From IMG/VR virus record IMGVR_UViG_3300028388_004364, positions 1 to 20,393 of that record: DNA of 20,393 nt. The stretch is one strand, 5' to 3'. Below the pieces are notes generated by a model, which saw nothing but the letters and a program-made list of their open reading frames with translations, was not told the DNA's origin and ran no database searches. Both the position numbers and the translations under genes were made by a program. This stretch comes from a virus. Positions 1 to 20,393 of this stretch are shown here, piece by piece (the stretch's first letter is position 1; each line of letters starts with the position of its first letter).

Positions 1-779
1 TTGAAGCTGGCTTGTTCGCCTTTACCGATGGTAAGGGTGGAGCCTTCTTGCATCGGAATTTCACAAGGGGAGTTGTCAGCCAGGTTACGTGCCAGTCGCT
101 TAGCGCCTGTTTTAAGGGGCATGAGACCCAGTGGCTTGCCGTCCTTGGATACCAGACCTAGATACGAGAGGAAGGCCTGATTTTCGCCTGTTTTGACCTC
201 TTTGACGATGATTTTTTCCAGCTCGAGGGTTGTGTCTTGGTAGTCAGCGATGTCCAGGATACCGCCGCCTTTGCCCCGTTCGATGGAGCTTGCGTAGTAG
301 GACAACACTGCGCGCACATCGCTGTTCAAGTCCCGTAAGTGCTTGCGTTCCAGCTTGTCGGTGTTTTGGAAGAAACCGATAGGCATTTCCACCGTGTCGC
401 CGTACTGATTCTCGCCTTCATAAGTGATGGTAATCTTGTTGTCGACGGCAACCAACATCAGCTTATCAGCCAGTTCGTCGCTGATGCGGTAGTAATAATC
501 ACCCACTTGGATTGCCAGTTCAGGTTCATCGCCGTCATCGAACTGTTTCTTACCGATGCGAGGGCCGAAAACCTTACTGACAGTACCGTTGTCGCATTTC
601 AACAGGAAGGGTTTGACGTCAGCGTGCTCCGATTCCAGGGCACCGCAGTCTTCCAACAGGGAGGTAATCAGGCCGTGGACAACGCTGTAACCTTCGATAG
701 CTGCCATCGGTACGGCGGCCCAAGTTTTGTCAGCGGGGACGGTAGCGGCTAAGACGTCGGACTCAAATTTGTTAAGCAT
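1..779 (-). CDS. Hypothetical phage protein, 3' end outside window
   Basis: An open frame runs from an ATG at 779-777 to the window edge without a stop, giving at least 259 residues. The product starts MLNKFESDVLAATVPADKTW and is a soluble, fairly acidic protein with no membrane segment or motif I recognise. The codon pattern (GCC, CTG, GGT, CGT) matches the phage structural genes, so I take it as real; the plus-strand frame at 339-752 is its shadow. No Shine-Dalgarno sequence precedes the ATG and no clear promoter was seen in the 130-bp gap at 780-909. It is the last visible member of a minus-strand series at 1-2411. Function unknown. Confidence 0.7.
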   Translation of the reverse strand, partial: MLNKFESDVLAATVPADKTWAAVPMAAIEGYSVVHGLITSLLEDCGALESEHADVKPFLLKCDNGTVSKVFGPRIGKKQFDDGDEPELAIQVGDYYYRISDELADKLMLVAVDNKITITYEGENQYGDTVEMPIGFFQNTDKLERKHLRDLNSDVRAVLSYYASSIERGKGGGILDIADYQDTTLELEKIIVKEVKTGENQAFLSYLGLVSKDGKPLGLMPLKTGAKRLARNLADNSPCEIPMQEGSTLTIGKGEQASF

Positions 780-909
780 GATAGTGAAGTAGTAGTGAAC
801 TGCTTAGTTATTGTTACGGCGGTTAAGGTGTATTTCCGGGAGACTTTCAAATTAATTTTGTAACCCGTTTCTTTCCTTGACCGTTACTAACAGATTACAG
901 CCGCGATTA

Positions 910-1440
910 TCAAGGTTGGTACCCTATTGTGACACTGTTTTCTTGATGGTAGTCGGAGAAGTAGCGGCATGCCTGCACAAACATTTGGATGTAGGACGCC
1001 TGCACATCGATATCAGGGTTGATGCCGTAGGTTAAATCGGAGGCGTCCTCTGCGGCGTGTTTACCCAGGATGACCTCCAACATGTAGGTAACCACTTCAA
1101 CCTCTGAGATGCCCCGGTCATTGCACACCCATTTCAGGCGCAGTTGCACGTTACGCATGTCTTTGAGGGTGGCTGCACGGAGTGACTGCTCGGTCTCCCG
1201 GTGCAGTATGTCGAGTTCACGTTGCACGGGGTCCCCTGTAGCATAGTCTTCTACATGTGTAGCCATCTTGATACGCAACGTAAGGGCCTCGCGCATCAGG
1301 GCTGACACAACCTCTTGAGCAAGGGGGCTGTAAAGCATCGCGTAACGCATCAGGAAGGCCACTGCGTAGTCTAGAGGCATGATTTGATATCCAACCTCTC
1401 CGACACGCACTGTAGGGGCAGTATAGGATGCCTCAAACAC
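910..1440 (-). CDS. Hypothetical protein with antirepressor-like motif
   Basis: 176 residues if the GTG at 1440-1438 is the start. The N-terminal part holds MPLDYAVAFLMRY followed by an amphipathic stretch ending TLRIKM. This resembles the pattern P-x-x-x-A, aromatic, A/L-rich helix, R shared with the genes at 1558-1914, 1980-2411 and 13564-14046, and recalls the C-terminal region of phage/cyanobacterial BRO-type antirepressor-like proteins. That link is inference from memory. The start is uncertain: no Shine-Dalgarno sequence is present, and a 14-codon ORF beginning ATGCAA on the minus strand ends with a TAA one base before the GTG, so either coupled translation from that leader or a one-base frame difference is possible. 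It lies downstream of 1558-1914, separated by a full-length hairpin repeat. Confidence 0.6.
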   Translation of the reverse strand: MFEASYTAPTVRVGEVGYQIMPLDYAVAFLMRYAMLYSPLAQEVVSALMREALTLRIKMATHVEDYATGDPVQRELDILHRETEQSLRAATLKDMRNVQLRLKWVCNDRGISEVEVVTYMLEVILGKHAAEDASDLTYGINPDIDVQASYIQMFVQACRYFSDYHQENSVTIGYQP

Positions 1441-1495
1441 TTTACGTGATTGTGATAGTGGAATGTTGCATGGTAGTGTCTTGCATGATAGTGTG

Positions 1496-1553
1496 TGCTC
1501 GCTGCGCTCGCGACACCTGGCTGATAGGGCCGTGTGTCAGGAGCGCTAGCGAC
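1496..1553 (-). repeat. Post-stop hairpin repeat, full length (copy A)
   Basis: A 58-bp full-length member of a dispersed family. Read on the minus strand it begins GTCGCTAGCGCTCCTGACAC, continues ACGGCCCTA plus a 7-nt loop, and ends GGTGTCGCGAGCGC-AGCGAGCA. GCGCTC pairs with GAGCGC and GACAC with GTGTC, giving a strong stem-loop without a following T-run. It starts 4 nt after the stop codon of the gene at 1558-1914 and precedes the gene at 910-1440. Role inferred: mRNA 3' end protection, processing or attenuation. Confidence 0.85.
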
Positions 1554-1557
1554 TGTG

Positions 1558-1914: not shown

Positions 1915-1922
1915 GGTAATGT

Positions 1923-1938: not shown

Positions 1939-1950
1939 GATATATGGTCA

Positions 1951-2901: not shown

Positions 2902-2904
2902 GGG

Positions 2905-4174: not shown

Positions 4175-4183
4175 TAGGCCCCG

Positions 4184-4213
4184 GTCGCTGTCGCTCCTGA
4201 AAACGGCCCTATA
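4184..4213 (+). repeat. Post-stop hairpin repeat, 5' half (copy F)
   Basis: GTCGCTGTCGCTCCTGAAAA then CGGCCCTATA matches the 5' half of the family, 10 nt after the TAG of the gene at 3485-4174. The 3' arm is absent. Sense orientation, as in all other copies. Confidence 0.75.
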
Positions 4214-4438: not shown

Positions 4439-5677
4439 ATGTCACCGCAGGATTACGGCGATATCCAGTACCTCTCTGAAAGCATGAATGAGGTCGTAGC
4501 CAAAATTTGGGGCGAAAACTTCATGGAATTTGCGCAGAGCATGATTACTTGGGGTGCAAATGTGAAGGACGGTTTCATCAACCGTGTCACTGCAGGCCGT
4601 CATCTCACCCATGAGCACAAGCACCTCCTGCACCGCCGCGAGGACATCGGATTTGACGGCCTTGCAATGAAGTACCGCCCGCACAACCCAAAGGGCCTCA
4701 ATGTCACCGACAAAATCTTGTCCTGGTTACCGGAGGCTGAACGCAAAATCCTGGCTCTCTGTATCGGTCGTATCATGAACAATGATGACGGCAGCACATG
4801 GCGCACGGTACCCATCATCAACGGTCGCCCCGGCCTCGGTAAGACGATGTTTGTCAGCAAGCTGGGACGTCATCTGGAACGCCTCGGATGCGTTGTTGCA
4901 CACATTGGAGCACCCATCGACCGTTTCACGTTCAACATCGAGAACGCGGCCGCTGACTTTTGGATTACCGATGACACCTCCCGCTCCGACATTGAGGGCC
5001 TGACACGTAACAGCACCTTCAAGTCCCTTGCATCCAACAGTGACACCGTCGTGGAGGACAAGTATGTCCAACCCGTCACTGTGAAGCCCTGTGGTAGCTG
5101 GTTCATGCTCGGTAATGCCATCCACCGTAACCACCTGATTGGTGCTGACCCGGGTGTGTTAGACCGTATTGCAATACTGCAATGTAACCCAGAAGACACC
5201 CGTAGCACCGACGTAATCGAGAAGGACGCTTGCATGCAACTAGGCATGGATGCTACCGCCCTGTGGGAGGAGCTGCTGGCTGAGTGCAGTGCCTACTACC
5301 GTCAAAACGTTGGTAATATGGAAAAGGCTATCAACGACTTGCGTAATCACTGCATTGAACCACCCACCGAGCTGCCCCTGGCTGAACTTGCAGCTATCGG
5401 TATCGTGTTGCATCACACCGCAGATAGCGATGGGAACCCGTTTGTTGAATGGAGCCTGGACACAATCCTGGAAAGCATTGCCGTCGGTCAACACTGGCTC
5501 CCACAGTCCCTGGTTGACAGCCTGCAGTGCATCCAATGGAAAGCAACGGTACGCTCCATCCGCCGTCGTTCAAACATGGGTGTGGAGCCATCCCCTAAAA
5601 CCATGACCCAGTACATCCGTACCACCGACGGTCACACCCTGCCCTCTACCATGGCGCCTTACGCTCAATCAGTGTAA
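4439..5677 (+). CDS. Superfamily 3 (D5/primase-helicase type) ATPase
   Basis: 412 residues from the ATG at 4439. Walker A is NGRPGLGKT (residues 128-136), a Walker B-like ADFWITDD lies at 172-179, and FKSLASNSDT...SWFMLGN (194-226) fits the SF3 motif region ending in the sensor Asn; PGVLDRIA carries a likely arginine finger. SF3 enzymes unwind DNA as hexamers at replication forks and often carry a primase or DNA-binding N-terminus. The same frame is open upstream to 4358 and, across a TGA, to the ATG at 4253, so the annotated start may not be the native one; the site before 4439 has only a weak GGAAG. The 3' end overlaps the convergent gene at 5665-6189 by 13 nt. Confidence 0.85.
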   Translation: MSPQDYGDIQYLSESMNEVVAKIWGENFMEFAQSMITWGANVKDGFINRVTAGRHLTHEHKHLLHRREDIGFDGLAMKYRPHNPKGLNVTDKILSWLPEAERKILALCIGRIMNNDDGSTWRTVPIINGRPGLGKTMFVSKLGRHLERLGCVVAHIGAPIDRFTFNIENAAADFWITDDTSRSDIEGLTRNSTFKSLASNSDTVVEDKYVQPVTVKPCGSWFMLGNAIHRNHLIGADPGVLDRIAILQCNPEDTRSTDVIEKDACMQLGMDATALWEELLAECSAYYRQNVGNMEKAINDLRNHCIEPPTELPLAELAAIGIVLHHTADSDGNPFVEWSLDTILESIAVGQHWLPQSLVDSLQCIQWKATVRSIRRRSNMGVEPSPKTMTQYIRTTDGHTLPSTMAPYAQSV

Positions 5678-6198: not shown

Positions 6199-6528
6199 AT
6201 GTTAACGTTGAAACAACGGGTTATGCAGGCCCTTGGTCATCCTGCATCAGCCTTTGAACTGTGGCCTGACTTCACGACTGACATCAGCACGGAGTTGGAG
6301 GCCCTACTGACCCAGCTACAGGACATTGATGATGCTATGGCGGCCCTTGTATCGGACAGTAATGTTGTCCAACTGGATACCATCAAACTGGATGTCAGCA
6401 AGGGCCTCAAAAGCCTGAGACGTCAGGGTAGCCTCAAACTGAAGTACATAGCGGCTATAACTGGCTATCCTTTAGCCTATGACAGGTATGTACCACCCAC
6501 GCGGTTATCACTGCGTAACAGTCGCTAG
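6199..6528 (+). CDS. Hypothetical small protein
   Basis: 109 residues starting MLTLKQRVMQALGHPASAFE. The frame is open to an ATG at 6142, but that start would overlap the divergent gene starting at 6189; the ATG at 6199 has AGGA 6-9 nt upstream and is preferred. The protein is mainly helical with a C-terminal YPLAYDRY. It has the size of head-tail joining or neck proteins, but I do not recognise the family. The final codons, AGT CGC TAG, belong to the repeat at 6521-6579, so the current C-terminus may have been set by repeat insertion. Confidence 0.7.
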   Translation: MLTLKQRVMQALGHPASAFELWPDFTTDISTELEALLTQLQDIDDAMAALVSDSNVVQLDTIKLDVSKGLKSLRRQGSLKLKYIAAITGYPLAYDRYVPPTRLSLRNSR

Positions 6529-6586
6529 CGCTCCTGACACACGGCCCTAGTAACCAGGGTGTCGCGAGCGCAGCGAGCACAGCGAC
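6521..6586 (+). repeat. Post-stop hairpin repeat, full length (copy B)
   Basis: GTCGCTAGCGCTCCTGACAC through GTGTCGCGAGCGCAGCGAGC (6521-6579), extended by ACAGCGAC whose AGCGAC (6581-6586) pairs with the first GTCGCT. Stem pairs visible: GCGCTC 6528-6533 with GAGCGC 6566-6571; GACAC 6536-6540 with GTGTC 6559-6563; CCT 6546-6548 with AGG 6556-6558. It contains the stop codon of the gene at 6199-6528 and precedes the ribosome binding site at 6601. Confidence 0.9.
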
Positions 6587-6615
6587 CGCACACACAACTT
6601 TTTGGAGATTATGTA

Positions 6616-7116
6616 ATGGCTAGACTATCATTCACCCAGCAATTGAAAGTGGGTAAACAACTGGAGGAATACCTGCTGGAGATACTGGGTGCTGAACCCG
6701 TTGATATGGAACAGCAACGCCGGGGTATCGATATGGTCTGTAGCAACGGTGTTACAGTCGAGGCAAAGCTGGACGTCCGAGGTGCCAAAAGTGGTAACTT
6801 CTTTGCTGAATTACAGACTGGTAACAAGCCGGGGTGCATGTTTACGTCCACTGCTGACATCATCGTTATCTGCATCGGTAGCCCCGGCAACTATCCGATG
6901 TTTTTGACGAACAGTTCCCGGTTTTCGGCGGCAATGATTACATTCAACCAGAAAAAGCTGAAAACCGTGACATGCCGTAATCCTGGAGGCTACAGCTCCA
7001 AGGGGATGTTGGTACCTTTCCGGTTATTGAAAGAATTCTGTGTTATAGTGGAATCGGAGTCTCAATTTATCGAGTATGTCTCTGATTACAGTTTACGATT
7101 TAGAAAGGCGTCATAG
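6616..7116 (+). CDS. PD-(D/E)XK nuclease-like protein
   Basis: 166 residues from the ATG at 6616, chosen because it has TTTGGAG 10-15 nt upstream (6601-6606) and because the longer frame to 6559 would run through the repeat. RRGIDMVCSNGVTVEAKLD gives the spaced D39...E49-A-K51 of the PD-(D/E)XK fold, with a preceding helix containing EEYLLEIL that can supply the first acidic residue. Such enzymes include resolvases, recombination exonucleases and restriction enzymes; the position directly before the polymerase suggests a role in phage DNA processing or recombination. A 41-nt overlap with the polymerase start indicates coupled translation. Exact substrate unknown. Confidence 0.8.
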   Translation: MARLSFTQQLKVGKQLEEYLLEILGAEPVDMEQQRRGIDMVCSNGVTVEAKLDVRGAKSGNFFAELQTGNKPGCMFTSTADIIVICIGSPGNYPMFLTNSSRFSAAMITFNQKKLKTVTCRNPGGYSSKGMLVPFRLLKEFCVIVESESQFIEYVSDYSLRFRKAS

Positions 7117-9478
7117 CCCTCCACAGCCATCTCAGGGGGTCAAACAGGCCCTCGAGATGCACGGTCTCTCATTAGAGTACCGATACACCGACAAACTACC
7201 CATTGAGGGCGTTTCCATCGATGACCTGCATACAGGGGCGGTGGACACCTTCAATGGGTTGCTTTTTGATGTGAAGGTCCCACAAAACATTGGTTATGTA
7301 GCAACGCTGGAGAGGGGCCTCTGGTACTATCAACCACATGGTAGTAGTGAATGGGTGGCAGTAGCACCGCCCTGCAATGAGTATTTAGTCCTAGATACTG
7401 AGACATACGGCCTTGCACAATCACGGCCCGCAATCGCCGTTGCAGCCTGCAGCCGTGGTACCTACGCATACGTGCACACGCCGCACCATAACCCACACTC
7501 GCTGGAGAGCCGGATACCACTGGGTGATGGCAATGTTGTTGCAGGGTGGAACGTGTCGTTTGACCGGGCACAGATGAGAAGCACTTTCCGCTACCATGAC
7601 GACAACCTGTGGCTTGATTACATGTCTATCATTGTGGCAATGCACGGTCACAGCAATCAGCAGGCAGGCTTAGTGCGCAAAATTCAGTCAGGAAAGTGCG
7701 AGTATGTGCCTGAATGGTACGAGCATGTCTGCGGCCGTTCCCTAAAGGCTGCTGCTCAATATTTTGGCCTCTCAGTGGACAAAAGCCAGCGTGACATCAT
7801 CGTCGATGAAGGGTACGCGGCGTTCAAAGGCAACCTGTTGCACGATAGCATTCAATACTGCTTTGATGACGTGCTGTTGACTGCAAAGGTGGGACGCCTG
7901 ATGATTGCAGCGGCCTTACGGTGGTACCATCCAGTTTCGTTGCGCGCCCTGATGTTACGTAACACCCAGATTATGCCGTTGTCAGAGGCGTGGGTGGATT
8001 ACCTGGACCGTAATGAACCAGAGAGTGAAGCCATTTTGGAACGGGTGTCACAGTTCATCCTCGACAGGGCTGATGCACTGCTGGAAAGCGGTCCCACTAC
8101 GGAGCAGCACGAGGAGTTGGACTGGACCCTGTTGAAGGCGGGCAAAAACAAGGGCCTCCCACGATGGTATGTTGACATACGCAAGAACCCCTCTTTAGGC
8201 GTCCGTGTTGTGCCCTACATCATCGGCCTGCATTACCGGGGTGCACCGATGTTCCTGGATGACAACAAAAAGTGGGTCGCAGGCGGCAAGCATGTGCCAC
8301 ACCCTGAAACCGGGCTACCGATATCAAATGCGTTCGTCAAAGGCAGTCGGTACGAGGGTGACGGGCTATCTGACCTGTTGACTGACGTGGAAAGCCTTAC
8401 CAACTGGAAGTCGATGCGTAAACAGATTGCTGAAACCACCTATGTGCGCGGTGAAGACGGCACTGTGTGGCATTGCCCCCGTGTTGTTGCTTGGGGTACC
8501 ATCAGCCGCCGTGAAGCCTCCAGTATCTGGATGCAGGTGCCTAACCCTAAAGAGCACCGCCTGGGTACCGAGGCACGCATGTTAATCCAGGCCCCTAAGG
8601 GTTACACACTGGTAACGTTTGACGTGGACAGTGAAGAGGCTATGATTGCGGCGATTATGGGTGATGCACACGCCCCTAGTGATTACCGCATGGACATCAA
8701 GGAGCCACTGCCTGGAGCCACCCCGTTCTCGTTGTCAGCGCTTGCAGGCGACAAGGGTGAAGGCACAGACATCCACTCACTGGCTGCTAAAAAGCCCGGC
8801 ATCGCCCGTGCAAGTGCAAAGGGCTTAGTGTACGGCGGCCTGTATGGACAGGGCGTTAAGGGGGCATCTGACAGCCTCTACAAAGCAGGTGTGGCTCCAG
8901 AGGACTGTGACCGTATTGCACAGGAGTTTACCGCCGGGTTTAAGGGTGTCAAACGCGGTAATGCATACCACGGCGGGCTGGCATCATACACGTTTACGGC
9001 CCTGGATAACCGGGGTGACTGGAACGCTAAAACACTAGCATTCAACCATCCATTACCCCGCAGTTTACAGGGGCACGAGGAGTTTGCCACAACCCGGAAA
9101 AACTGGGTCATCCAATCCACTGGCTCCGACATCCTGGACATCATAACCACCGTCTTTGACAATCTAGCCACAAGTGAAGGTATCCGATATCGCTTCGTGA
9201 TGTTCCATCATGACTGCGTTAGTGTGATGGTAGAGGACGATGCAGCCCTGACTGAACGTGTTGCAGTGTTGTTACAACGCGCACACGCAACCGCATGGCT
9301 CCACATCTACCAAAAACTGGGTTTCAAGGTGGTACCTACCAAGGTGTTGATTGCATCATCAACAGAGGTGGGTCCACAATACAAACATGGAAAAACTCCA
9401 AAATATTCCGTGAATCTTCCGGTTAAGGAGTTGTACCCCTCGGATATTAGCAGTAGTTACTGGAATAACAAACAATGA
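7076..9478 (+). CDS. Family A DNA polymerase, mitochondrial Pol gamma-like
   Basis: 800 residues with 3'-5' exonuclease and polymerase domains. Exonuclease: DTE (D107, E109), GWNVSFDRA (D163) and YCFDDVLLT (D265), equivalent to D198/E200, D274 and D399 of human Pol gamma. Polymerase: motif A FDVDSEE (D516), motif B R578-x3-K582-x3-Y586 (RASAKGLVYGGLYGQG), motif C HHDC (D713). Features shared with Pol gamma but not with T7 or Pol I include GTISRRE before motif A, QAPKGYTLVTFDVDSEE, GTDIHS before motif B and NWVIQSTGSDIL after it, and a Pol gamma-like spacer between the domains. In motif C the usual Glu after HD is Cys714. Start 7076 lies inside the nuclease gene; a later start is possible. The stop overlaps the next ATG (ATGA). 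Confidence 0.95.
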   Translation: MSLITVYDLERRHSPPQPSQGVKQALEMHGLSLEYRYTDKLPIEGVSIDDLHTGAVDTFNGLLFDVKVPQNIGYVATLERGLWYYQPHGSSEWVAVAPPCNEYLVLDTETYGLAQSRPAIAVAACSRGTYAYVHTPHHNPHSLESRIPLGDGNVVAGWNVSFDRAQMRSTFRYHDDNLWLDYMSIIVAMHGHSNQQAGLVRKIQSGKCEYVPEWYEHVCGRSLKAAAQYFGLSVDKSQRDIIVDEGYAAFKGNLLHDSIQYCFDDVLLTAKVGRLMIAAALRWYHPVSLRALMLRNTQIMPLSEAWVDYLDRNEPESEAILERVSQFILDRADALLESGPTTEQHEELDWTLLKAGKNKGLPRWYVDIRKNPSLGVRVVPYIIGLHYRGAPMFLDDNKKWVAGGKHVPHPETGLPISNAFVKGSRYEGDGLSDLLTDVESLTNWKSMRKQIAETTYVRGEDGTVWHCPRVVAWGTISRREASSIWMQVPNPKEHRLGTEARMLIQAPKGYTLVTFDVDSEEAMIAAIMGDAHAPSDYRMDIKEPLPGATPFSLSALAGDKGEGTDIHSLAAKKPGIARASAKGLVYGGLYGQGVKGASDSLYKAGVAPEDCDRIAQEFTAGFKGVKRGNAYHGGLASYTFTALDNRGDWNAKTLAFNHPLPRSLQGHEEFATTRKNWVIQSTGSDILDIITTVFDNLATSEGIRYRFVMFHHDCVSVMVEDDAALTERVAVLLQRAHATAWLHIYQKLGFKVVPTKVLIASSTEVGPQYKHGKTPKYSVNLPVKELYPSDISSSYWNNKQ

Positions 9479-9792: not shown

Positions 9793-10553
9793 CCGCCGTA
9801 GGTAGGATAGATACGCACCCCTACCGCAATGGCACCGGGTGTTGTCGGTACATTCCTCCAACCCTCCTCTTTAAGGGCCTTTTCGACTGATAGGACCGAT
9901 AGGGTGTTGTCACCAAAAGTCCGTCCAAAAACAGGTTTCATGACGAACTCATTGACCGCCCATGCACAGGATAGCCGTCCGTTACGGGTGGCAGGCGGGC
10001 TGGGTGGGTTACCGCTCTTCTTACCTGTGTTTGATATGGCTGCATCAACCATCTGCTGCAGTATAGGGGCATTAGGGTTTAGGGGCCTGCTACCGCCTGA
10101 TGTGACGGCCCCCTGTACCTGCGGCGGGGGTGGCACCTTGACGTCAGCCTCCTGTGGCTTGTAGACGGTCAGTTCCATCAGGCCGTCACCCTGCCGCTTG
10201 ATACCGTCGACAATGTAATCGCCTGTGGGACGTAGGTGTTCAGATTGCACGTAATCACCTACCCTGATAGGTGAGTCAGGCACTGTTAAGGTAGCCTTAT
10301 GCCCCTTAACGAGACCGTCTTTGATGATAGTCAGGGACGTAACGGGGCTGTCGGACTGGTTGACGTTCAAAACATCCCTGAGTACCACACGACGCCTGTC
10401 CTCGTCCTTCACGTAGATAAGTGATGCCCCGTTGTCTTCACTGACCGTTTCACCGTCTTGTGGCTCGACTGTCAAGGGGCTACCAACCAGCTCGGACGCC
10501 TTACGGTAACCAACCGCCTCAATCCTGATTGTACCGCTGCCACTGACGTGCAT
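9714..10553 (-). CDS. Baseplate hub-like protein with NlpC/P60- or CHAP-type hydrolase
   Basis: 279 residues from ATG 10553-10551. The N-terminus MHVSGSGTIRIEAVGY matches MQVIVGPIRIDNVVGY of the upstream gene. Residues 40-135 are β-rich with RVGDYVQSEHLRPTGDYIVD, like the hub (gpD/XkdQ-type) fold. A PPPPQ linker (141-145) leads to a C-terminal cysteine peptidase-like domain: Cys196 in LSCAWAVNEF, His255 in GGHIGIIVG and Asn269 in LSNSS, consistent with a peptidoglycan amidase/endopeptidase that opens the wall during DNA entry. It overlaps 10519-11298 by 35 nt and the convergent small gene by 79 nt. Family assignment rests on motif order only. Confidence 0.8.
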   Translation of the reverse strand: MHVSGSGTIRIEAVGYRKASELVGSPLTVEPQDGETVSEDNGASLIYVKDEDRRRVVLRDVLNVNQSDSPVTSLTIIKDGLVKGHKATLTVPDSPIRVGDYVQSEHLRPTGDYIVDGIKRQGDGLMELTVYKPQEADVKVPPPPQVQGAVTSGGSRPLNPNAPILQQMVDAAISNTGKKSGNPPSPPATRNGRLSCAWAVNEFVMKPVFGRTFGDNTLSVLSVEKALKEEGWRNVPTTPGAIAVGVRIYPTYGGHIGIIVGPNDDSLSNSSSRRLLLPR

Positions 10554-11298
10554 AGCCCGCTATCTTGGAGGCCCTATCGGTGCCGTTGATGATACGTCTG
10601 GCACCCACAAAATCGACACGACCGGGTCCAATGTAGTCGGATAGGCTTTTGCCCGTGAAGACACCTGTACGGCTACCATGGACCAATACGAAGCAGCTTA
10701 GACCATAGTCTTTAACCATCAGGGTGTAGTCGGTAAGCAGGGGTTGCCCTGTCAAGTCCTGATAGCGTTTGTAGTTAAACCTCCACGTCAACTGGACTAG
10801 GCCCCTACCCCGGTATGGGTCGTATCTGAAGGGGCCTCCAAATTCCGTAATCGGTATGAAGAAGCCGTTTTTGCCGTTCACCTTACCCAGGTTGCTGCAC
10901 TCATGTTGTGCCGTAGCCAGGACATAGGCTATCTGGTTCCTGTCCGTGACACCCTGTCTCAAGCACTCCCGTATGATGCATTGGATGCGTACCCGTTCAC
11001 TGGCAGGTACCGGGAACGATGGGACCCCTCGAGACGTGAACCGCACCGGGGGCATACCATCCACACCCTGTAGCGACACCTGGCTGTTGACAGAGCTGCC
11101 CTGGGTAGGCGGTGTCGGTTGCGGCGGTGTAGGCACAATGATGCCCTTAGTCGTCTTTGCCAGGGACAGTAGGGCCGTCAGCAGGCCGTCGCTGTATGGC
11201 ACCTCAAATGAGTATTTATTACTACCTCCATCAGCCGAAAGTGTCACATCGTAACCTACCACATTATCGATGCGGATAGGTCCCACAATCACTTGCAT
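10519..11298 (-). CDS. Baseplate protein with GH19 (chitinase-like) lysozyme domain
   Basis: 259 residues. The ATG at 11298-11296 has a perfect GGAGG (11308-11304) 5 nt upstream and aligns with the start of the downstream paralogue; the ATG at 11310 inside the Shine-Dalgarno region is rejected. Residues 1-50 are a β-strand hub-type module; a Pro/Thr linker (PTPPQPTPPTQG) follows. Residues 100-258 match the GH19 muramidase/chitinase fold: catalytic Glu133 in ATAQHECSN, YRGRGLVQLTW (162-172), and a C-terminal RRIINGTDRASKIAGY helix. Probably cuts wall glycan during injection or lysis. Transcribed with 9714-10553 away from the palindromic element. Confidence 0.88.
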   Translation of the reverse strand: MQVIVGPIRIDNVVGYDVTLSADGGSNKYSFEVPYSDGLLTALLSLAKTTKGIIVPTPPQPTPPTQGSSVNSQVSLQGVDGMPPVRFTSRGVPSFPVPASERVRIQCIIRECLRQGVTDRNQIAYVLATAQHECSNLGKVNGKNGFFIPITEFGGPFRYDPYRGRGLVQLTWRFNYKRYQDLTGQPLLTDYTLMVKDYGLSCFVLVHGSRTGVFTGKSLSDYIGPGRVDFVGARRIINGTDRASKIAGYARQWQRYNQD

Positions 11299-11325
11299 GC
11301 TAGCCTCCATTTTGACTTACAAATC

Positions 11326-11499
11326 GCTGAAACCCTTATTATCTCGTTCATTTTTTATAAAAAATTTCTGTAAAGTGTGCAGTAGGGCGGTGGGACCCTC
11401 TTTTTTATTATCTAGTAATAAATAAATACTAGCGTGCACCTTGTTCACACTTTTGGAAAATTTTTGATAAAAAATGAACGAGACAATAGGGGTTTCAGC
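11326..11499 (-). repeat. Palindromic element, right copy (174 bp, inverted)
   Basis: Begins GCTGAAACCCTTATTATCTC and ends AATAGGGGTTTCAGC; the core (GTGGGACCCTCTTTTTTATT...TACTAGCGTGCAC) is the reverse complement of the core at 2577-2751, so the two copies are inverted. It lies between divergent genes 10519-11298 and 11600-13459. The right arm contains an ATG (11474) in frame with the Asp-rich gene, but all four arms of the two elements encode the same MNEI(I)-like string, so this ATG belongs to the element rather than the gene. The rest of 11311-11599 holds only the promoter at 11528. Confidence 0.9.
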
Positions 11500-11527
11500 C
11501 GTTTTACCGCGAGTTACCCACTATTGG

Positions 11528-11556
11528 TTGACGTTTCCACCTGACCGTGATATATT
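11528..11556 (+). promoter_or_regulatory. Sigma70-type promoter for the Asp-rich gene
   Basis: TTGACG (11528-11533), 17-nt spacer, TATATT (11551-11556). The -35 TTGACGTTTCC is shared with the leftward promoter at 2467 (TTGACGTTCC). Transcription would start near 11563, downstream of the element ATG at 11474, so the first usable start is ATG 11600. Confidence 0.75.
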
Positions 11557-11599
11557 GAGACAGTACAGTAATATCGACGGACAAAGGTACCACAACATT

Positions 11600-13459
11600 A
11601 TGCGTACAACAACCACTGAACGCTTCACAACAGCCCTTAGCACCCTCCTCCACGCTGATTTTGGGGCTATGACATACCCGCAGTTAAAGAAGGCTGCAAA
11701 GGGCCTTATCATGAAGCCACATAAATTGTCACACGGGGAGCTGTTGGAGGAGCTGTCCCAGTTACGGGAGGTGTCACAGCAGATTATTGAGGGTCCCACA
11801 ACCGAGCGCCTGCCCCTCCGTCTATGGGACTACCAGAATGAGATGCCCCGCCTAGCCACTGTAATGACGCAAGAGGAACGCCGAAAGATGAACCGTAAAA
11901 ACGCCCTTAAACGCCTCAAAAAAGTGTTCAGCGAGGAAGAGTTCAAAAAGATGTCCCGTAGCTCCCTGAACCGCCGTATGGGTGCCTCTCTGAACGTGTA
12001 TCGCAACGAGAGTGCCAGTGTATGGTTCAACCTGACCGATACCACTATCCACTTGCTTCAGGTTGAAGGCACCTTGGAAGGCTGTGAAGAGGGCGACATC
12101 GATACCGACAGCGTGGACATCCTGTCCTTTGACTGGAAGAACCTCCCTGACCTGAAAAAGATTGTCACCCAGGTCCTTGACTCCCGCTCCGACGATGAAG
12201 AAGGCCCTGATGATGACGGCCCTGATGAAGGCCCTGATGATGACGGCCCTGATAACCATCAGCAGCCTGACGATAATCAACAGCCTGATAACAGTCAACA
12301 CGATGACAGCATTGATGAGAATGATAATACTGGCACTGATATTGTCCCTGATGATGACAGTGCTTGTGATGAAGCCCCTGGTAATGATGACCCTGACGAC
12401 AGTGCCCCTGACATTGACGATAGCCCTGATGAGCCAGTAGATGATAGCCAGGGTGACGCGGAAGAAACGGGCAAGCAGCGGTTCTTTGAAGGGGGTGAGG
12501 AACATAACTCGGACAAGCACGCAGAGCTGCTTAACGACATTTTTACCCGGGTACAGCAGCAATTGGACCTCCAACCAGCCAACATGTCATGGTCTGAAGA
12601 GGTGGCATACGAGGCACACAAGATGCTCAAAGAGGCCCCGTTCGAGGTACCTGGGTTGTGTCTGAACCATGAGTTTCAACTGCAGTTCACAATTGAACGG
12701 CGCCCCTACTACTACACGATAGACGAGGACAGTTGTTCAGCCACCTTCCAGTGCATGTTTGAGGAGCGGGATGACGCGAAAATCCCGGTGTATTTCGAGA
12801 GCGACAATGTCATCAGCGCTGCAATGTCATTACGGTTCGACGTTGAACGGGCCTTGGACATCGACGTCCCTAAAGACCGATTTGTGGGACTACCCACTGC
12901 ACAGGAGATTGACGGTCGCTCCGCTCCCGAAAACGGCCCTACCAACCAAGGTGTCGCGAGCGTAGCGAGCGCTAGCAGTGTGTATGAAGCGTATTTCCGC
13001 ACCCTCCAGGACCTGGGTGACCCTGCTTTCAGTGCAGCGGGTGAACAGGGTGGCACCTTTGTTATGACCATTAACGGCAAGGCATGCACCCTCGGTATCT
13101 CTCCCACCCATACCATGCGCGGTAACTTTGAAGGCAGCCAGGAAGTGGGTGGCAAATACACCTACACCGCGATGTGTGACCGTTCACGGCAACGCATCAA
13201 GACCGATGAACCAAAAGACACCTTGGTCATTATGGACCTGCTAGTGCGCACGATAGGCCCCGCTGATGCCCTGTATGATGTGTACGATGACATCAATCTG
13301 ACCAAGTGCATCACCGAGGACACCGTTGCCTACTTCGTCATCCAGCCTGATGATACCTTTGCTATCCACGTCATCAAAGACGGCAACAAGGACGATTACG
13401 CGGTCCTGACATTGGATGAGAACGGTACTGTGCAACCACCTATCGCCTCCATCCGCTAG
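11600..13459 (+). CDS. Asp-rich hypothetical protein with embedded repeat
   Basis: 619 residues from ATG 11600 (MRTTTTERFTTALSTLLHAD). The frame is open to 11474, but that start lies in the palindromic element and upstream of the promoter at 11528-11556. Order: a basic helical N-terminus (residues 1-150, with RRKMNRKNALKRLKK), an Asp/Pro/Gly/Asn-rich acidic region (about 195-290) built from GPDDDGPDE-type repeats, and a folded C-terminal half. Residues 439-458 (GRSAPENGPTNQGVASVASA) are encoded by a copy of the dispersed hairpin repeat. I recognise no family. The acidic tract could mimic DNA or bind basic partners, but this is speculation. Ends at a half-repeat and a strong bidirectional terminator. 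Confidence 0.85.
   Translation: MRTTTTERFTTALSTLLHADFGAMTYPQLKKAAKGLIMKPHKLSHGELLEELSQLREVSQQIIEGPTTERLPLRLWDYQNEMPRLATVMTQEERRKMNRKNALKRLKKVFSEEEFKKMSRSSLNRRMGASLNVYRNESASVWFNLTDTTIHLLQVEGTLEGCEEGDIDTDSVDILSFDWKNLPDLKKIVTQVLDSRSDDEEGPDDDGPDEGPDDDGPDNHQQPDDNQQPDNSQHDDSIDENDNTGTDIVPDDDSACDEAPGNDDPDDSAPDIDDSPDEPVDDSQGDAEETGKQRFFEGGEEHNSDKHAELLNDIFTRVQQQLDLQPANMSWSEEVAYEAHKMLKEAPFEVPGLCLNHEFQLQFTIERRPYYYTIDEDSCSATFQCMFEERDDAKIPVYFESDNVISAAMSLRFDVERALDIDVPKDRFVGLPTAQEIDGRSAPENGPTNQGVASVASASSVYEAYFRTLQDLGDPAFSAAGEQGGTFVMTINGKACTLGISPTHTMRGNFEGSQEVGGKYTYTAMCDRSRQRIKTDEPKDTLVIMDLLVRTIGPADALYDVYDDINLTKCITEDTVAYFVIQPDDTFAIHVIKDGNKDDYAVLTLDENGTVQPPIASIR
12203..12256 (+). repeat. Short tandem coding repeat GGCCCTGATGATGAC
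   Basis: Units of 15, 12, 15 and 12 nt starting GGCCCTGAT encode GPDDD, GPDE, GPDDD, GPDN. Looser CCTGA units continue to about 12436. Slippage-prone; length variation between isolates would be expected. Confidence 0.8.
12915..12972 (+). repeat. Hairpin repeat inserted in frame inside a gene (copy C)
   Basis: GTCGCTCCGCTCCCGAAAAC, then GGCCCTACCAACCAAG, then GTGTCGCGAGCGTAGCGAGC, a full-length member carrying several substitutions. It lies within the 619-residue gene, in the sense direction and open in frame, with flanking coding sequence continuing on both sides. Confidence 0.85.
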
Positions 13460-13460: not shown

Positions 13461-13489
13461 GTCGCTACGCTCCCGAAACCCTGGCTATA
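13461..13489 (+). repeat. Post-stop hairpin repeat, 5' half (copy G)
   Basis: GTCGCTACGCTCCCGAAACC then CTGGCTATA, closest to copy C, one base after the TAG of the 619-residue gene. GGGT before it and ACCC after it can pair. Confidence 0.65.
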
Positions 13490-13493
13490 GAAA

Positions 13494-13527
13494 AGGCCCT
13501 TACCGATGTGGTAGGGGCCTATTTTTT
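13494..13527. terminator. Bidirectional Rho-independent terminator
   Basis: AGGCCCTTACC-GATGT-GGTAGGGGCCT forms an 11-bp stem (one G-T wobble) followed by ATTTTTT on the plus strand; the plus-strand AAAA before the stem supplies a T-run for the minus strand. It closes the convergent genes ending at 13459 (plus) and 13564 (minus). It is the only classical terminator I found in the window. Confidence 0.9.
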
Positions 13528-13531
13528 ATGA

Positions 13532-13555
13532 CCGTGTGTCAGGAGCGACAGCGAC
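13532..13555 (-). repeat. Post-stop hairpin repeat, 5' half (copy H)
   Basis: On the minus strand GTCGCTGTCGCTCCTGACAC followed by ACGG, 8 nt after the TAG of the gene at 13564-14046 and before the terminator. Same orientation rule as the other copies. Confidence 0.75.
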
Positions 13556-13563
13556 TAGTGACC

Positions 13564-14082: not shown

Positions 14083-14517
14083 CTATTTGATTGATGTGGG
14101 TGACACAACCATCTCCGTCATCGACACCCCGCTACCATCCAGGTCAATGTCACCCAGTGTGACAGATTGGACGATGCACCCTACCAGTCGGACGGTGGCA
14201 CCCACAGGCTCGTTACCGCACGCAGAGACGGGTGTAAGGGCGATGTCAAAGGCCGCCTCTGCAGGGTCACGACAGTCGTCGATAACCCACGACATAAGCA
14301 CTGCATCGATGTCAGGGTCAGCAGGCTTTTTCATGGACACATCACCATACTCCACCTTGCCCGGGACTGGTACCTTTTCCCGGCTGAACCCATCTGCAAT
14401 CTTCTCCATATTCCGGGTGGCCTGTAACCCAGACACACTGGTAAAATACAGTTGACCCTCATGCCCTGAAACTGTCACTAACCACTGTGCCTGTGGCTGG
14501 ATTTTAGGCTTACGCAT
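14083..14517 (-). CDS. Tail tube protein (T4 gp19-like)
   Basis: 144 residues. An N-terminal strand WLVTVSGHEGQLYFTSVSGL (residues 12-31), then QATRNM, VPVPGKVEYGDVSMKKP (49-65) and a β-rich C-terminus reproduce the order seen in T4 gp19-like tube proteins: FxxVSGLx, charged linker, LPGxxxYGxVxLK. The protein would stack as hexameric rings inside the sheath. It is the next gene after the sheath at 14631-15776, the usual order in myoviruses. The upstream gap of 113 nt (14518-14630) shows no clear promoter or terminator. Start ATG 14517-14515 has only a distant GAGG. Confidence 0.82.
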   Translation of the reverse strand: MRKPKIQPQAQWLVTVSGHEGQLYFTSVSGLQATRNMEKIADGFSREKVPVPGKVEYGDVSMKKPADPDIDAVLMSWVIDDCRDPAEAAFDIALTPVSACGNEPVGATVRLVGCIVQSVTLGDIDLDGSGVSMTEMVVSPTSIK

Positions 14518-14630: not shown

Positions 14631-15776
14631 TTACTGACCGGGTACCTGTAGTGTCGGTCTGATGATAATCTTTTCAACAGAGGACGCAGGCTGTGTCACA
14701 ATATCCATGAACAGGATGCCGTTCGCTAAATCTGTCACATTGTTGTTGGAACTGTCACAGGTCACCTCGTAGGCGTCACGGGGTGTGTTACCTACCAAGG
14801 CCCCTAGGTTGTAGAGGCGCCGCATAACCTGATTTGCCATGTTGGACGCAATCAGGTACAGCATGCCCTGGTTGTCAGCCCGTCCGAAAAGGATACGCTC
14901 TGCCTCTACTGTCAACGTGTTACGAATAACGCTGATGATAATAGCAGAGTTGATAAAGGGCCGCCCGGTACCCAGTGTACGGGCACCCATAACCGCGATA
15001 GCCCCTGCACGACTACGGGTAATCAGATTGACCCCTAGGGCCGTCAGGTGCTCCCAGTCAGTATCGGACACCGACAATGGCTGTGTGACACCCCGTAACG
15101 GATAGGCGGTACCTGCAGGGCTTTGTGCAATACCGTCCTGTTGCCACACAGACAGGGCAAGGGCCGCTACAGCAGAGGACGGAGGTACCAGTGTACTGTC
15201 TTGGTCCACCCACGGGAAATACAGGGCCGTGTTCTCCATAGGGGATATGTTACTAGCAAAGCCCCTGATGCCAGAGGTACTGTCAGCACCCACTACATCC
15301 TTTACGTCGTCTGGAGGGTCGATGATAGCAAAGAGTCCCGTGCGTTGCGCTGCCGTATCAACATACCCGGTCAAAATCTCATAATCGATGTCAGTTGATG
15401 CAGTGGCATACGCCCGTGGCAAACACAGGATGCCACTCACATTGCCGGGTAGCGACTGTAAGGCTGTCTGCCAGTCATCATGCCGGGTAGAGGCGTTACC
15501 TACCGTCTCTTCAACATTAACAAACAGCAGCGTGTTCCAGTGCTGGAAGAACAGTGCCACATCGTCCCGTGATGGACTATCGGACCCAAAGGCAGCATCA
15601 AACTCATCCAAGCTGTTGATACGTATTGCAGTATTGAAATTAGTAATGTCAGTACCACTTGTTCCCGGCAATCCTAGCATGTACACCTCGTTAGGGACTA
15701 CCAGTGTTACGGGTTGGTTATTTGCCGTCTGCGTGACGTACACACCCGGTCTGTTAGGGACATTAAAGCTTGTCAT
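14631..15776 (-). CDS. Contractile tail sheath protein
   Basis: 381 residues. The N-terminus contains RPGVYVTQ (residues 9-16), the hallmark first strand of phage and contractile-injection sheaths; VYMLGLPGTSG, FFQHWNTLLFVNVEE, the central LYFPWV segment, and the C-terminal GVNLITRSRAGAIAVMGARTL-type core with FINSAIIISVIRNT and MDIVTQPASSVEKIII follow the order of the family. The size is at the short end for sheaths. The ATG overlaps the stop of 15773-16054 by 4 nt (ATGA on the minus strand), so translation is coupled. Sheath plus tube makes the virus a myovirus. Confidence 0.92.
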   Translation of the reverse strand: MTSFNVPNRPGVYVTQTANNQPVTLVVPNEVYMLGLPGTSGTDITNFNTAIRINSLDEFDAAFGSDSPSRDDVALFFQHWNTLLFVNVEETVGNASTRHDDWQTALQSLPGNVSGILCLPRAYATASTDIDYEILTGYVDTAAQRTGLFAIIDPPDDVKDVVGADSTSGIRGFASNISPMENTALYFPWVDQDSTLVPPSSAVAALALSVWQQDGIAQSPAGTAYPLRGVTQPLSVSDTDWEHLTALGVNLITRSRAGAIAVMGARTLGTGRPFINSAIIISVIRNTLTVEAERILFGRADNQGMLYLIASNMANQVMRRLYNLGALVGNTPRDAYEVTCDSSNNNVTDLANGILFMDIVTQPASSVEKIIIRPTLQVPGQ

Positions 15777-16482: not shown

Positions 16483-16974
16483 TTATCTACCCCTTCCTCC
16501 GTAAATCGGTACACCGTTCTTAGTAATTGGACGTCTAATGGGTCGTATAGGCTCTCCACGGCGTCCTAGCTTACGTACCCTGTCTAGTGCCTCGCGTACC
16601 CTTTTACCCGTCGTCTTGCCTCCAGCAGCGGTCACTATATGGTCACCTGCACGGCGGGTAAACTCCTTAGTGATTTCCCTGACACTCCTGTCAACAAAGC
16701 GCCGGGGCGTTATCTTACGGGTGCCTTGGTCCACAAACCCCGCGTAGTAGGCACTATTACGGATTACAATAGTGCGTTCCCCTGTGTTTACCTTCCAACT
16801 ACTGCGCAGTTTCCCGGTCTTCACAGGGCTGTGTTTTTGCAGGATGGGTACCGCATAGTCAGGCACCTCCGACATAGCCCTTTTGATGGCTGCTGGTACA
16901 GTCCTACCGTTCCATAACGTCCCAGTAAAGTGTACACTAGCGTCCCATGCATTCCGTTTCCTACTCATAGCCAT
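16483..16974 (-). CDS. HK97 gp10-like tail completion protein
   Basis: 163 residues from ATG 16974-16972. SPVKTGKLRSSWKV (49-62), AYYAGFVDQGT (75-85) and KITPRRFVDRSV (87-98) match the order of the HK97 gp10 family: PVxTGxLRxS, YAxxVExGT, and the xPRxF segment. These proteins complete or connect the tail to the head. The C-terminal 60 residues are strongly basic (RKLGRRGEPIRPIRRP). First gene of the leftward tail operon; only 26 bp separate its ATG from the divergent fibre gene at 17001, so their promoters must overlap or lie within coding sequence. Confidence 0.85.
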   Translation of the reverse strand: MAMSRKRNAWDASVHFTGTLWNGRTVPAAIKRAMSEVPDYAVPILQKHSPVKTGKLRSSWKVNTGERTIVIRNSAYYAGFVDQGTRKITPRRFVDRSVREITKEFTRRAGDHIVTAAGGKTTGKRVREALDRVRKLGRRGEPIRPIRRPITKNGVPIYGGRGR

Positions 16975-17000: not shown

Positions 17001-18440
17001 ATGGCTAAAACCGTATTTACGCCCGGTACACCCATCACCTCCAGCTTCCTTAATGCCGTCAACAACCCGGTGTTTGACGGTGCTGATGTCGATGGACACC
17101 GGGGTCAGATTACAGATGCAGAGCTGGATGACGGCGGCATTAAAGCTGATGTACACGCTATCACGGACAGTTTTAAGGTCACAGCTAACACAGGCACTGT
17201 AGTGGACGTTGCAGCAGGCAACTACCAGGACGAGACTGGGACCCTAATTGTGTTTCCAGGAGACAGTGTGACACTTCCCACAGACGGTACATTTTACATC
17301 GTCATTGCCCCGGGTAACAACCTGACATATACCGAGGACCTGCCACCTGTCTGTCTAGCCCTAGCACGGGTCACTACATCAGGCGGTGCCATTGCCCCTC
17401 CTATCAACGATTTACGGCCCTGGTTCTCGGTGGTACCACGCCCCGTTAACGTCCAGGTTATCGGTGGCTACGGGCAGGAGAAGAGCTTGCGTGTGTCAGC
17501 ATCAGGACCGGGTGGCTGGAACCCCTCAAACACCGAGTATACGGTCATCGGTGATAATGTGTCACCCTACCAACTGGATGGCTCCTTTGACTACGATGAC
17601 TTCATTGTGGAAAGCGGTGCAGAGGTGTTCACTAACGGGGCCTACATCCGTGCATCAGGGGACGTCACAATCAGCGGCACAGTGACGGTTACAGCCACTG
17701 TCAATCCCGGTGCAGGGTTCGATGGTAGCGTGCTAGCACCCTCTGACATCCAGAGCAATAACGGTCAGGGCCTTGGTGGCAGCGGCGGTCACAGTGCCGC
17801 ACCTGAATCGTACAGCTACACCGCGTCACGCCTTGGTAGCGGCGGTGGCTCCTCCTACCTCAAGATGCGGTTAACAGCAGGGGCCACCTTCAGTGACATC
17901 AGCGATGACACCCAGATGAACGTCGGACGGGGCGGTAAAGGCGGTGGCTACTTCGTGATTGAGGCGGCTGGTAAGGTTGACGTATCAGGTACCATCGAGG
18001 CACGGGGCGGTGACGCTGTAGACACAACATATGCATCAGGGCTACCCAGTAACCAGTTCATCCTGGCATCAGGTGCTGGAGGTGGCAGTGGAGGTCTTAT
18101 CCACCTGATGAGTACCACCGAGATTACACTGACGTCCACCTCCACCCTAGACGTGCGGGGCGGTGACGGCGGTAAAGGCTACGTCTCCAGCAATGTGTCG
18201 TCCGCTTACCTGGCACGAGGCGGCGGCGGTGGAGGCGGTGGATACGTTGTCCTCAATGCCCCTAGTATCGTCGATAACTCCGTCAACATCATCCTAGCGG
18301 GTGGCTCTGCAGGCAGTGATGTAGGCACGGGTAGCAACAGCCTATCAGGTTGCCCCGGGGCTGCTTACGGCGGCAATGGAGGTGCATCCCATAGCCCGGG
18401 CGATAACGGCCAAAAGGTCACTATGACTTTCAACCCATAA
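17001..18440 (+). CDS. Glycine-rich tail fibre / adhesin
   Basis: 479 residues from ATG 17001. The N-terminal 150 residues (MAKTVFTPGTPITSSFLNAV...) look like a structural anchor with β-rich segments. From about residue 240 onward the sequence becomes rich in Gly, Ser and Ala with glycine runs (LARGGGGGGGGYVV, AAGSGGG-type, GGKGGGYFV) alternating with short β-strands; this resembles polyglycine-sandwich receptor-binding tips and cyanophage fibres. Likely the receptor-binding or tail-fibre protein. No Shine-Dalgarno sequence is visible; the motif GTTTCAGCGGTTAT just upstream resembles the ends of the palindromic elements. Followed by the tape measure after 13 nt. Confidence 0.8.
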   Translation: MAKTVFTPGTPITSSFLNAVNNPVFDGADVDGHRGQITDAELDDGGIKADVHAITDSFKVTANTGTVVDVAAGNYQDETGTLIVFPGDSVTLPTDGTFYIVIAPGNNLTYTEDLPPVCLALARVTTSGGAIAPPINDLRPWFSVVPRPVNVQVIGGYGQEKSLRVSASGPGGWNPSNTEYTVIGDNVSPYQLDGSFDYDDFIVESGAEVFTNGAYIRASGDVTISGTVTVTATVNPGAGFDGSVLAPSDIQSNNGQGLGGSGGHSAAPESYSYTASRLGSGGGSSYLKMRLTAGATFSDISDDTQMNVGRGGKGGGYFVIEAAGKVDVSGTIEARGGDAVDTTYASGLPSNQFILASGAGGGSGGLIHLMSTTEITLTSTSTLDVRGGDGGKGYVSSNVSSAYLARGGGGGGGGYVVLNAPSIVDNSVNIILAGGSAGSDVGTGSNSLSGCPGAAYGGNGGASHSPGDNGQKVTMTFNP

Positions 18441-18453
18441 GCGAGGCAACCAT

Positions 18454-20393
18454 ATGGCGAGTAACAATGTAAACGTAGCCCTTAACGCTGTCGACAATGT
18501 AACCCCGGCATTGGAGGGCATCACAGCCCGTGGTACCATCATGGGTAACGTGATTACCGGGGGCCTACAGCAAATAGGTGCTCTGGCTGGTAACGTATTC
18601 AACGGCATGCGTAACCAGTATCAAAACGCTGCAGACACCCAGATGTCGTTCATCGGTACCGCAGGCTCCCTGATGGGTGTATTGAACCAGAGCTATGACG
18701 AGGCCCTGGATACCACCATGCGCCTGAACGAACAGTTTGTCGAGCTAGGGGCACAGCTACCGGGCACTGCAGAGGACTTCTCATTCATCGGTCAAAGCAT
18801 CTCAGACGACCTGTTTAACGCCTTTAGGGATGCCAGTGGAGCCATTGACATGACGGCTGCTGAAGACACCCTGATGAACCTGACTGAGAAGTGGGGCCTC
18901 TTTGCACAACAGACGCAGACGACAAGCGCACAGGCGTCACAAAACCTGGTACGTCTGATGTCAGGTGATGTCAACGTGTTGCGTATGGTCCAGTTTGACA
19001 AGTCCCCTGCCTTCAAGAACGCCCTGGAACGGGTACTGGCAGCAGACCAAAAGACACGCGATGACTGGGAGGACGCTACCACAAGACAGCGTGCTGAGTG
19101 GATTGAACAGGCTGTCAGCATGACCATACCGCCTGAAGCAGTGGAGGCTATGAGTGGTACCATCAGCGGTACCATCAACCAGTGGAGAAGCAGCCTCTTT
19201 GATGCCACTAGCGGTGTCTTCGGCTTCCTTAGGGAGATTGAGGGTCGGAGCACTATCATGGAGGCCCTGGAAGGTATCGTGCAGTCCACAAACGACATGG
19301 TAGGTGTCATTGTGCAGCTTTGGCCCTTCAAAGGCGATGTGCTGGCACCGTTGTATGATGCCCTACGGTGGATACAGAGCCAGATTGACAGCGCAGTCAA
19401 CATACTGAACCCCGGTGATGTGGTATCAGGCCTGGAGGAAGGCTCCAAGCAGCTATCAGAGGCTATCGGACAGTCGTTACGTAGGGCGGCTATGCGTGCC
19501 ACTATCGGAATACGGGACATCAGTAGGGTGCTGTCGGACATCGACTTTACCACCGTGTTTTCAGGCATTGTGAACCGTGTCACACAGGGCATGGAGAACC
19601 TGGGTATCGACATGGGTCAAGTTAACCTAGGTAGTGTCACCCAGGCCCTAGCTGGCTACATGAATGACTTCCAGACACTGAGTCACTCAGTAGGGTCCAG
19701 TATTATCAACGGCCTGCTAGCACTGTTCAACCACCTGGTTAATGCAGTTGCAAACATGCAATTTGATACGTCCATCATATCAGGGGCCAATTTTGGGGCG
19801 ATGATAGGTAGGGTTGTGGGACGCAACATCTCATGGCTGCTGGCACGCACTATCGACCTGATATCAAACATCGATTACGGGGCTGTCAGACGCGCTACAT
19901 TCAACATTTTGATGGGTGTAGGAGGGGCCTTTATTGGACTGGTAGCGGGGCTATCACAGGGTTTTGTGTCAGGGCTACCAGATGTCCTATCATCAATCGT
20001 GGGTAGCATAGGCTCCGTCAAGACGATGGTAGACGGTGTCATGAGTGGCTTCTTCAATGGGATGGTAGCTGCCGTGACATGGATTGACGGTATAGCGCGT
20101 CCAATAGAGCTTTGGGCCGCCCGTGCAGACGCCTCCATAGCTGAGTTTGCAGCGTCAGCAGATGCAGCCATATCAGGTGCCGTAGTAGCAACCGTTGAAG
20201 GTGTAGCGGCATTTGCATCAGGCTTAACAGACATACCTAAAGCCTTAGTGGCAGCCATTAAAAGTGCAGCAGACCAAGTAAAGTCAGCTATGAACGGCCT
20301 TGCAGCACCCATCCTAGCCGCTGTCAAGGGCATATTTTCAGGTGTCACAACTGCCATCCGTAACGTGGGTAACCGTGTCACCTCGTTGATACC
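18454..20393 (+). CDS. Tail tape-measure protein, 3' end outside window
   Basis: Open from ATG 18454 to the window end, at least 646 residues with no stop in this frame (checked by translating through). It starts MASNNVNVALNAVDNVTPAL, then a central section with ATEDTLMNL- and SGTISGTINQWRSSLFDATS- and GVFGFLREIEGRS-type segments characteristic of phage tape-measure proteins, and a hydrophobic patch AFIGLVAGLSQGFVSGL near residues 490-510 of the sort used in membrane passage. It sets tail length and may aid DNA injection. A plausible GCGAGG lies 10 nt before the ATG. The two open frames on the opposite strand at 18792-19613 and 19875-20381 are shadows of its codon bias. Confidence 0.85.
   Translation, partial: MASNNVNVALNAVDNVTPALEGITARGTIMGNVITGGLQQIGALAGNVFNGMRNQYQNAADTQMSFIGTAGSLMGVLNQSYDEALDTTMRLNEQFVELGAQLPGTAEDFSFIGQSISDDLFNAFRDASGAIDMTAAEDTLMNLTEKWGLFAQQTQTTSAQASQNLVRLMSGDVNVLRMVQFDKSPAFKNALERVLAADQKTRDDWEDATTRQRAEWIEQAVSMTIPPEAVEAMSGTISGTINQWRSSLFDATSGVFGFLREIEGRSTIMEALEGIVQSTNDMVGVIVQLWPFKGDVLAPLYDALRWIQSQIDSAVNILNPGDVVSGLEEGSKQLSEAIGQSLRRAAMRATIGIRDISRVLSDIDFTTVFSGIVNRVTQGMENLGIDMGQVNLGSVTQALAGYMNDFQTLSHSVGSSIINGLLALFNHLVNAVANMQFDTSIISGANFGAMIGRVVGRNISWLLARTIDLISNIDYGAVRRATFNILMGVGGAFIGLVAGLSQGFVSGLPDVLSSIVGSIGSVKTMVDGVMSGFFNGMVAAVTWIDGIARPIELWAARADASIAEFAASADAAISGAVVATVEGVAAFASGLTDIPKALVAAIKSAADQVKSAMNGLAAPILAAVKGIFSGVTTAIRNVGNRVTSLI

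Follow-up and report, generated by a model that had tools for sequence, protein, structure and literature searches.

The tetranucleotide GATC is completely absent from both strands of a 20,393-base fragment of an uncultured phage, and with a probability of roughly 80% this absence represents escape from host GATC restriction in a contractile-tail phage of cyanobacteria. The whole stretch of 20,393 bases is hereafter called the window; it is a fragment, and the count covers the fragment rather than the full phage genome.

Absence of GATC from the window

We compared exact tetranucleotide counts with several expectations. No GATC was found in the whole window, whereas 79.2 copies were expected from the base composition, and 60.8 and 85.4 copies from the order-1 and order-2 Markov models, respectively. 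A sequence-only reading had reported no GATC where about 80 would be expected, and both figures were borne out by the count of 0 and the expectations of 61–85. GATC was by far the most depleted of the 256 tetranucleotides and the only one with a count near zero; the next was TATA at a ratio of 0.43, and no word other than GATC fell below 0.4 of its expectation. The palindromes of the same composition, CTAG, CATG, and GTAC, were present 50, 95, and 89 times, respectively, and the absence is therefore not a general palindrome effect.

When synonymous codons were shuffled in the 22 predicted genes, with protein and codon usage preserved, 64.9±6.1 copies were obtained, with a minimum of 47 in 500 shuffles. 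The observed count is far below the codon-level expectation as well as the compositional one. The deficit extended over all three codon phases (hyphens mark the codon boundary): NNG-ATC, GAT-C, and NGA-TCN occurred 0 times vs 43.7, 18.5, and 3.1 expected, respectively. Isoleucine following a codon ending in G was encoded by ATT or ATA 60 times and never by ATC, which is the commonest isoleucine codon. The missing GATC is replaced by synonymous codons, which indicates selection on the DNA word. Furthermore, 988 positions lie one substitution away from GATC, so that its absence requires active maintenance. The reading frames are intact across the would-be sites, and lost or misassembled DNA is therefore an implausible cause. 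These results indicate that selection acts on the DNA word GATC and not on the protein, base composition, or assembly.

A bias of composition or mutation, the signature of the host genome, or an artefact of the assembly or the library has next to no probability as the cause. GATC is moderately low (0.4–0.7) in five of eight sampled cyanobacterial chromosomes (see also PMC4390886), but none of them approaches zero, and synonymous shuffling still expects 65 copies. In regards to an artefact, the intact frames argue against it, as does the same absence in A-4L, Pf-WMP4, and Lbo402, which are deposited as complete isolate genomes. A mutational hazard, in which GACC/GGTC would be depleted as one-transition precursors of GATC, was rejected, as the depletion is equal in phages that keep GATC.

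Other missing and unusual words

We scanned 448 palindromic patterns in the window against the synonymous shuffle. The standouts after GATC were RCCGGY (0 vs 26.9 expected) and GRGCYC (0 vs 13.5), and a separate earlier scan gave no CAGCTG. When the core and flanks were conditioned, with the flanks assumed to be independent, the expected counts of RCCGGY, GRGCYC, and CAGCTG were 9.8 (P = 2e-8), 19.4 (P = 6e-12), and 7.5 (P = 2e-6), respectively. All three had been overlooked in the sequence-only reading. Their joint absence suggests that several restriction systems acted on the same phage lineage.

YGGCCR was low in the scan but gave P = 0.055 once its flanks were conditioned, and avoidance is not claimed; nor is it claimed for GANTC and GYCGRC, which look low in the pattern scan. 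GGCC is not avoided, and GGWCC (AvaII), CYCGRG (AvaI), and ATGCAT (AvaIII) are kept with observed/expected counts of 41/57, 12/14, and 6/7, respectively. Over-represented words in comparison with the synonymous shuffles were AGGNCCT (27 vs 6), GTGNCAC (24 vs 6), and GGTACC (24 vs 10).

Gene content and probable host

The predicted genes identify the window as a fragment of a contractile-tail phage, with a tail module (sheath, tube, neck, tape measure, and fibre) and a replication module consisting of a DUF5906 ATPase, a small nuclease-like protein, and a gamma-type DNA polymerase (Table 1). Searches for tRNA and Rfam RNA in the window found none.

Table 1. Predicted genes and repeats of the window.
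Feature	Position	Strand	Remarks
Primase/helicase-like ATPase	4439..5677	+	DUF5906, PHROG 25243
Small putative PD-(D/E)XK-type nuclease	6559..7116	+	G-I-D...V-E-A-K motif; directly upstream of polymerase
DNA polymerase, mitochondrial-gamma type	7076..9478	+	DNApol_Exo and PolA; best isolate matches all cyanophages, 23–27% identity
Endolysin-like	10519..11310	-	PHROG 181; weak GH19 match
Tail tube	14083..14517	-	T4 gp19-like
Tail sheath	14631..15776	-	Closest isolate Leptolyngbya phage Lbo402-yong5, 33% over 96%
Neck/tail completion protein	16483..16974	-	HK97-gp10-like
Tail collar/fibre-like protein	17001..18440	+	N-terminus with cyanophage matches only (Leptolyngbya, Nostoc, Anabaena, Dolichospermum)
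Tape measure protein	18454..20391	+	Truncated by window end; sole isolate match Lbo402-yong5
Palindromic intergenic element, two copies	2566-2756, 11321-11510		About 185 bases, one per gene gap; each copy an inverted repeat; 121-base arms 94% complementary between copies
Short repeat GCTCGCTGCGCTCGCGACACC ... GTGTGTCAGGAGCGCTAGCGACT	1494-1556, 1931-1981, 2874-2901, 4175-4200, 6518-6581, 12922-12970, 13462-13556	both	Mostly at gene ends; possibly a regulatory or small mobile element
Degenerate short tandem repeat	12058-12440		In ORF 11474-13459; codes an acidic Asp/Pro/Gly-rich stretch (DDDGPDEGPDDDGPD)

The core proteins are closest to those of isolates that infect cyanobacteria. All 11 matching isolate records of the polymerase and 15 of the 20 of the sheath were cyanophages, with Lbo402-yong5 first for the sheath, and the isolate matches of the tape measure and tail fibre were cyanophages only; the matches of the endolysin were unspecific for host group. 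Five genomes of the cyanobacterial phylum also carried relatives of the sheath, tape measure, and other structural proteins, at loci that are prophage-like (five such loci for the tape measure). The relatives are distant, with 25–35% identity to the window proteins. A cyanobacterial host is likely because the core proteins are closest to cyanophages and structural relatives lie in genomes of the cyanobacterial phylum. No CRISPR-spacer link to a host was obtained.

The small nuclease-like gene could bear on the absence of GATC if the phage encoded a GATC nuclease that destroys host DNA and its own genome were GATC-free for that reason. The PD-(D/E)XK-like motif and the presence of the gene in both the window and its relative L051, which are both GATC-poor, are consistent with this idea, which we nevertheless judge highly unlikely. 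The gene was found only in these two, in identical gene order between the helicase and polymerase, as for a recombination nuclease, and was undetected in the other phages examined that are free or nearly free of GATC (Lbo402, Pf-WMP4, A-4L, Mic1, L098, L121, and L132). It gave no family match and no usable structure prediction (pLDDT 34), and the other missing sites would be left unexplained. The nuclease was rejected as the cause on its lack of relatives beyond L051, its replication-module position, and the uninformative structure.

GATC in relatives and other cyanophages

Single-protein searches of viral contigs found no close relatives of the window, and alignment searches yielded L051 as the only near relative. 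This contig, the closest relative in IMG/VR, shares the polymerase, nuclease, ATPase (helicase), and neck genes with the window and has an observed/expected GATC count of 1/29. The counts were 0/261 in Leptolyngbya phage Lbo402-yong5, 0/120 in Pf-WMP4, and 0/94 in A-4L (40 kb sampled for each of the latter two), and 11/235 in Mic1. Intermediate ratios (0.6–0.7) were observed for Ma-LMM01 and PaV-LD, and ratios of at least 0.8 (0.8–1.0) for the following phages: N-1, Elbi, YongM, YongM2, A-1(L), Dfl-JY23, S-TIM5, S-CBWM1, A-HIS1, and S-EIV1. The GATC-free phages and the nearly free Mic1 are of differing virion types, and GATC loss therefore probably arose more than once among cyanophages. A literature search for GATC-free cyanophages, with incomplete coverage that left most subscription papers outside it, found no published statement.

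The Nostoc and Anabaena phages N-1, Elbi, and YongM keep GATC and contain no GGWCC, CYCGRG, or ATGCAT. These words are the sites of AvaII, AvaI, and AvaIII, the classical Anabaena enzymes. Methylases against the three enzymes are carried by the conjugation helper plasmid pRL623 (PMC10653904). The absence of the Ava sites serves as a positive control for reading missing words as a mirror of host enzymes.

The prophage-like structural relatives in two genomes (G346 and G048) showed a GATC ratio of 0.20, vs 0.60 and 0.67 for the host chromosomes. These genomes gave no PF04556, PF02976, or PF06044 match despite the GATC-depleted prophage relatives.

Other words were missing from environmental phages. 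ACGT, AGCT, and TCGA were all absent from those with a related tail sheath (L101, L106-L111, L113, L116-L119, L122, L123, L129, and L146); the counts in L116 were 0/73, 0/69, and 0/51, respectively. Five four-base palindromes were gone or nearly so from L126, L130, L131, L134, and L142, with AGCT, CCGG, CGCG, and TCGA at 0 and GATC at 0–2.

We also observed the loss of a non-palindromic word. AATC and GATT together occurred 0 times on both strands vs 111 expected in L051 (1–15713; one GATC), and 0 times vs 239 in A-4L (L035 and L036; no GATC). The window differs from both and contains 63 AATC and 68 GATT. Two phages of different kinds have therefore purged GATY/RATC, a four-base word that is not a palindrome. 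We know of no restriction enzyme with this specificity (AATC/GATT), and a literature search for a GATY/RATC-specific enzyme found none; the shared absence of AATC/GATT from L051 and A-4L suggests a recognition specificity that we could not assign to a known enzyme. A common uncharacterised GATC-centred defence of cyanobacteria beyond the DpnII, Sau3AI/MutH, and DpnI families, with GATY/RATC specificity in some hosts, is a speculative and rather unlikely proposal; if it existed, it would drive GATC to zero in cyanobacterial phages.

GATC enzymes in cyanobacteria and the probable cause of the avoidance

According to Elhai (2015), dmtA, which encodes a GATC methylase, is present in nearly all cyanobacteria except for one group, and Anabaena PCC 7120 is among the carriers; restriction enzymes predicted to cut GATC occur in 10 of 97 genomes (PMC4390886). 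We sampled 386 genomes from the cyanobacterial phylum and found DpnII-family (PF04556) genes in 38 of them. When ten of these genomes were tested for psbA, five were positive, which marks photosynthetic cyanobacteria, and five were negative. All five psbA-positive genomes carried a strong intact DpnII match. A D12-class adenine methylase gene adjoins the DpnII-family gene in four of them, and in the fifth (G180) the neighbour is a shorter reading frame that carries a methylase-like motif. DpnII-type GATC restriction-modification operons that are intact by sequence occur in photosynthetic cyanobacteria. With five such matches among the 386 genomes, known GATC enzyme families seem rarer in the sampled cyanobacteria than GATC-free phages. 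MutH-family and DpnI-family genes were found in 12 and 5 of the 386 genomes, respectively, the latter all of 1.6–2.5 Mb. DpnI-family and DpnII-family genes lie side by side in four small genomes of 1.9–2.5 Mb (G299 (L258), G154, G192, and G355), of which G299 is psbA-negative.

The preferred explanation is that unmethylated GATC is cleaved by a type II system present in hosts of the phage's natural range, in which a DpnII/MboI-type endonuclease is most probably paired with a D12 adenine methylase. Each newly arising GATC would be a cut point in incoming phage DNA, so that lineages with a GATC would die out and the surviving genome would be invisible to the enzyme, with the purge proceeding mostly through synonymous codon choice. 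We infer that the phage's own hosts have a GATC enzyme and that the selective force is cleavage, not methylation or repair. The sequence-only reading had proposed a restriction system in the hosts, which is supported by the specificity of the avoidance for one word, its recurrence across virion types, its variation with host group, and the DpnII-type operons in photosynthetic cyanobacteria. Its alternative of methyl-directed cleavage (MutH-type) is disfavoured by the low frequency of the MutH family and by the phages of the DmtA-bearing Anabaena PCC 7120, which keep GATC.

That alternative holds that MutH-like nicking of unmethylated GATC in methyl-directed mismatch repair selects against the word, as has been suggested for enterobacteriophages and phiX174. 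GATC avoidance was reportedly noted in enterobacteriophages by Deschavanne and Radman in 1991. The GATC-free phiX174 has a Dam/MutH host (PMC5014478), and the Dam-like methylase DmtA is nearly universal in cyanobacteria (PMC4390886). We regard this mechanism as very improbable for the window, as the MutH family was found in just 12 of the 386 genomes, N-1, Elbi, and A-1(L) keep GATC at 0.8–0.9 on DmtA-bearing Anabaena, and the missing RCCGGY, GRGCYC, and CAGCTG would be left unexplained. The Anabaena phages likewise led us to reject avoidance of orphan-methylase marks (GATC for DmtA and RCCGGY for DmtD, both missing from the window).

Methylation-dependent restriction (DpnI-like, type IIM/IV) would instead cut GATC-methylated phage DNA from DmtA-positive hosts in hosts that have a GmATC enzyme. 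GmATC should be common in cyanobacteria given near-universal DmtA (PMC4390886), and phages avoid type IIM GATC sites (PMC6286503), but the DpnI family was found in just five of the 386 genomes, which makes this quite unlikely.

Restriction by an enzyme that cuts unmethylated GATC agrees with the survey of Rusinov (2018), where GATC was under-represented in every one of the 46 phages infecting hosts with the corresponding enzyme (PMC6286503). The window is a new and extreme example of established restriction-site avoidance in an uncultured cyanophage lineage; the phenomenon itself is not new. The case offers a clean, testable instance of phage genomes recording the restriction enzymes of their hosts. 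For an uncultured phage, the missing words GATC, GRGCYC, RCCGGY, and CAGCTG serve as a fingerprint of its host, and the differences between cyanophages, with GATC gone in some and GGCC or the Ava sites in others, could aid host assignment.

Comparison with known systems

The virus set of Rusinov (2018) resembles the window in that a palindromic type II site is removed from the whole sequence (PMC6286503). Unlike that set, the window is at exactly zero over 20 kb and lacks three further sites, and we infer both its host and the enzyme. Lbo402-yong5 (OR994056) has related sheath, tube, tape measure, neck, and tail-fibre proteins, and RCCGGY and GRGCYC are also at zero along with its GATC. However, it additionally lacks GGCC, GGWCC, and CYCGRG, which are all kept in the window, and shows no match to the window polymerase and helicase. 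phiX174 shares the complete absence of GATC (PMC5014478), but phiX174 and other enterobacteriophages have hosts with Dam/MutH mismatch repair, whereas MutH-family genes are rare in the cyanobacterial phylum. The Anabaena and Nostoc phages have, like the window, zero copies of restriction sites, in their case those of the host enzymes AvaI, AvaII, and AvaIII; the sites lost are different ones, and GATC is kept.
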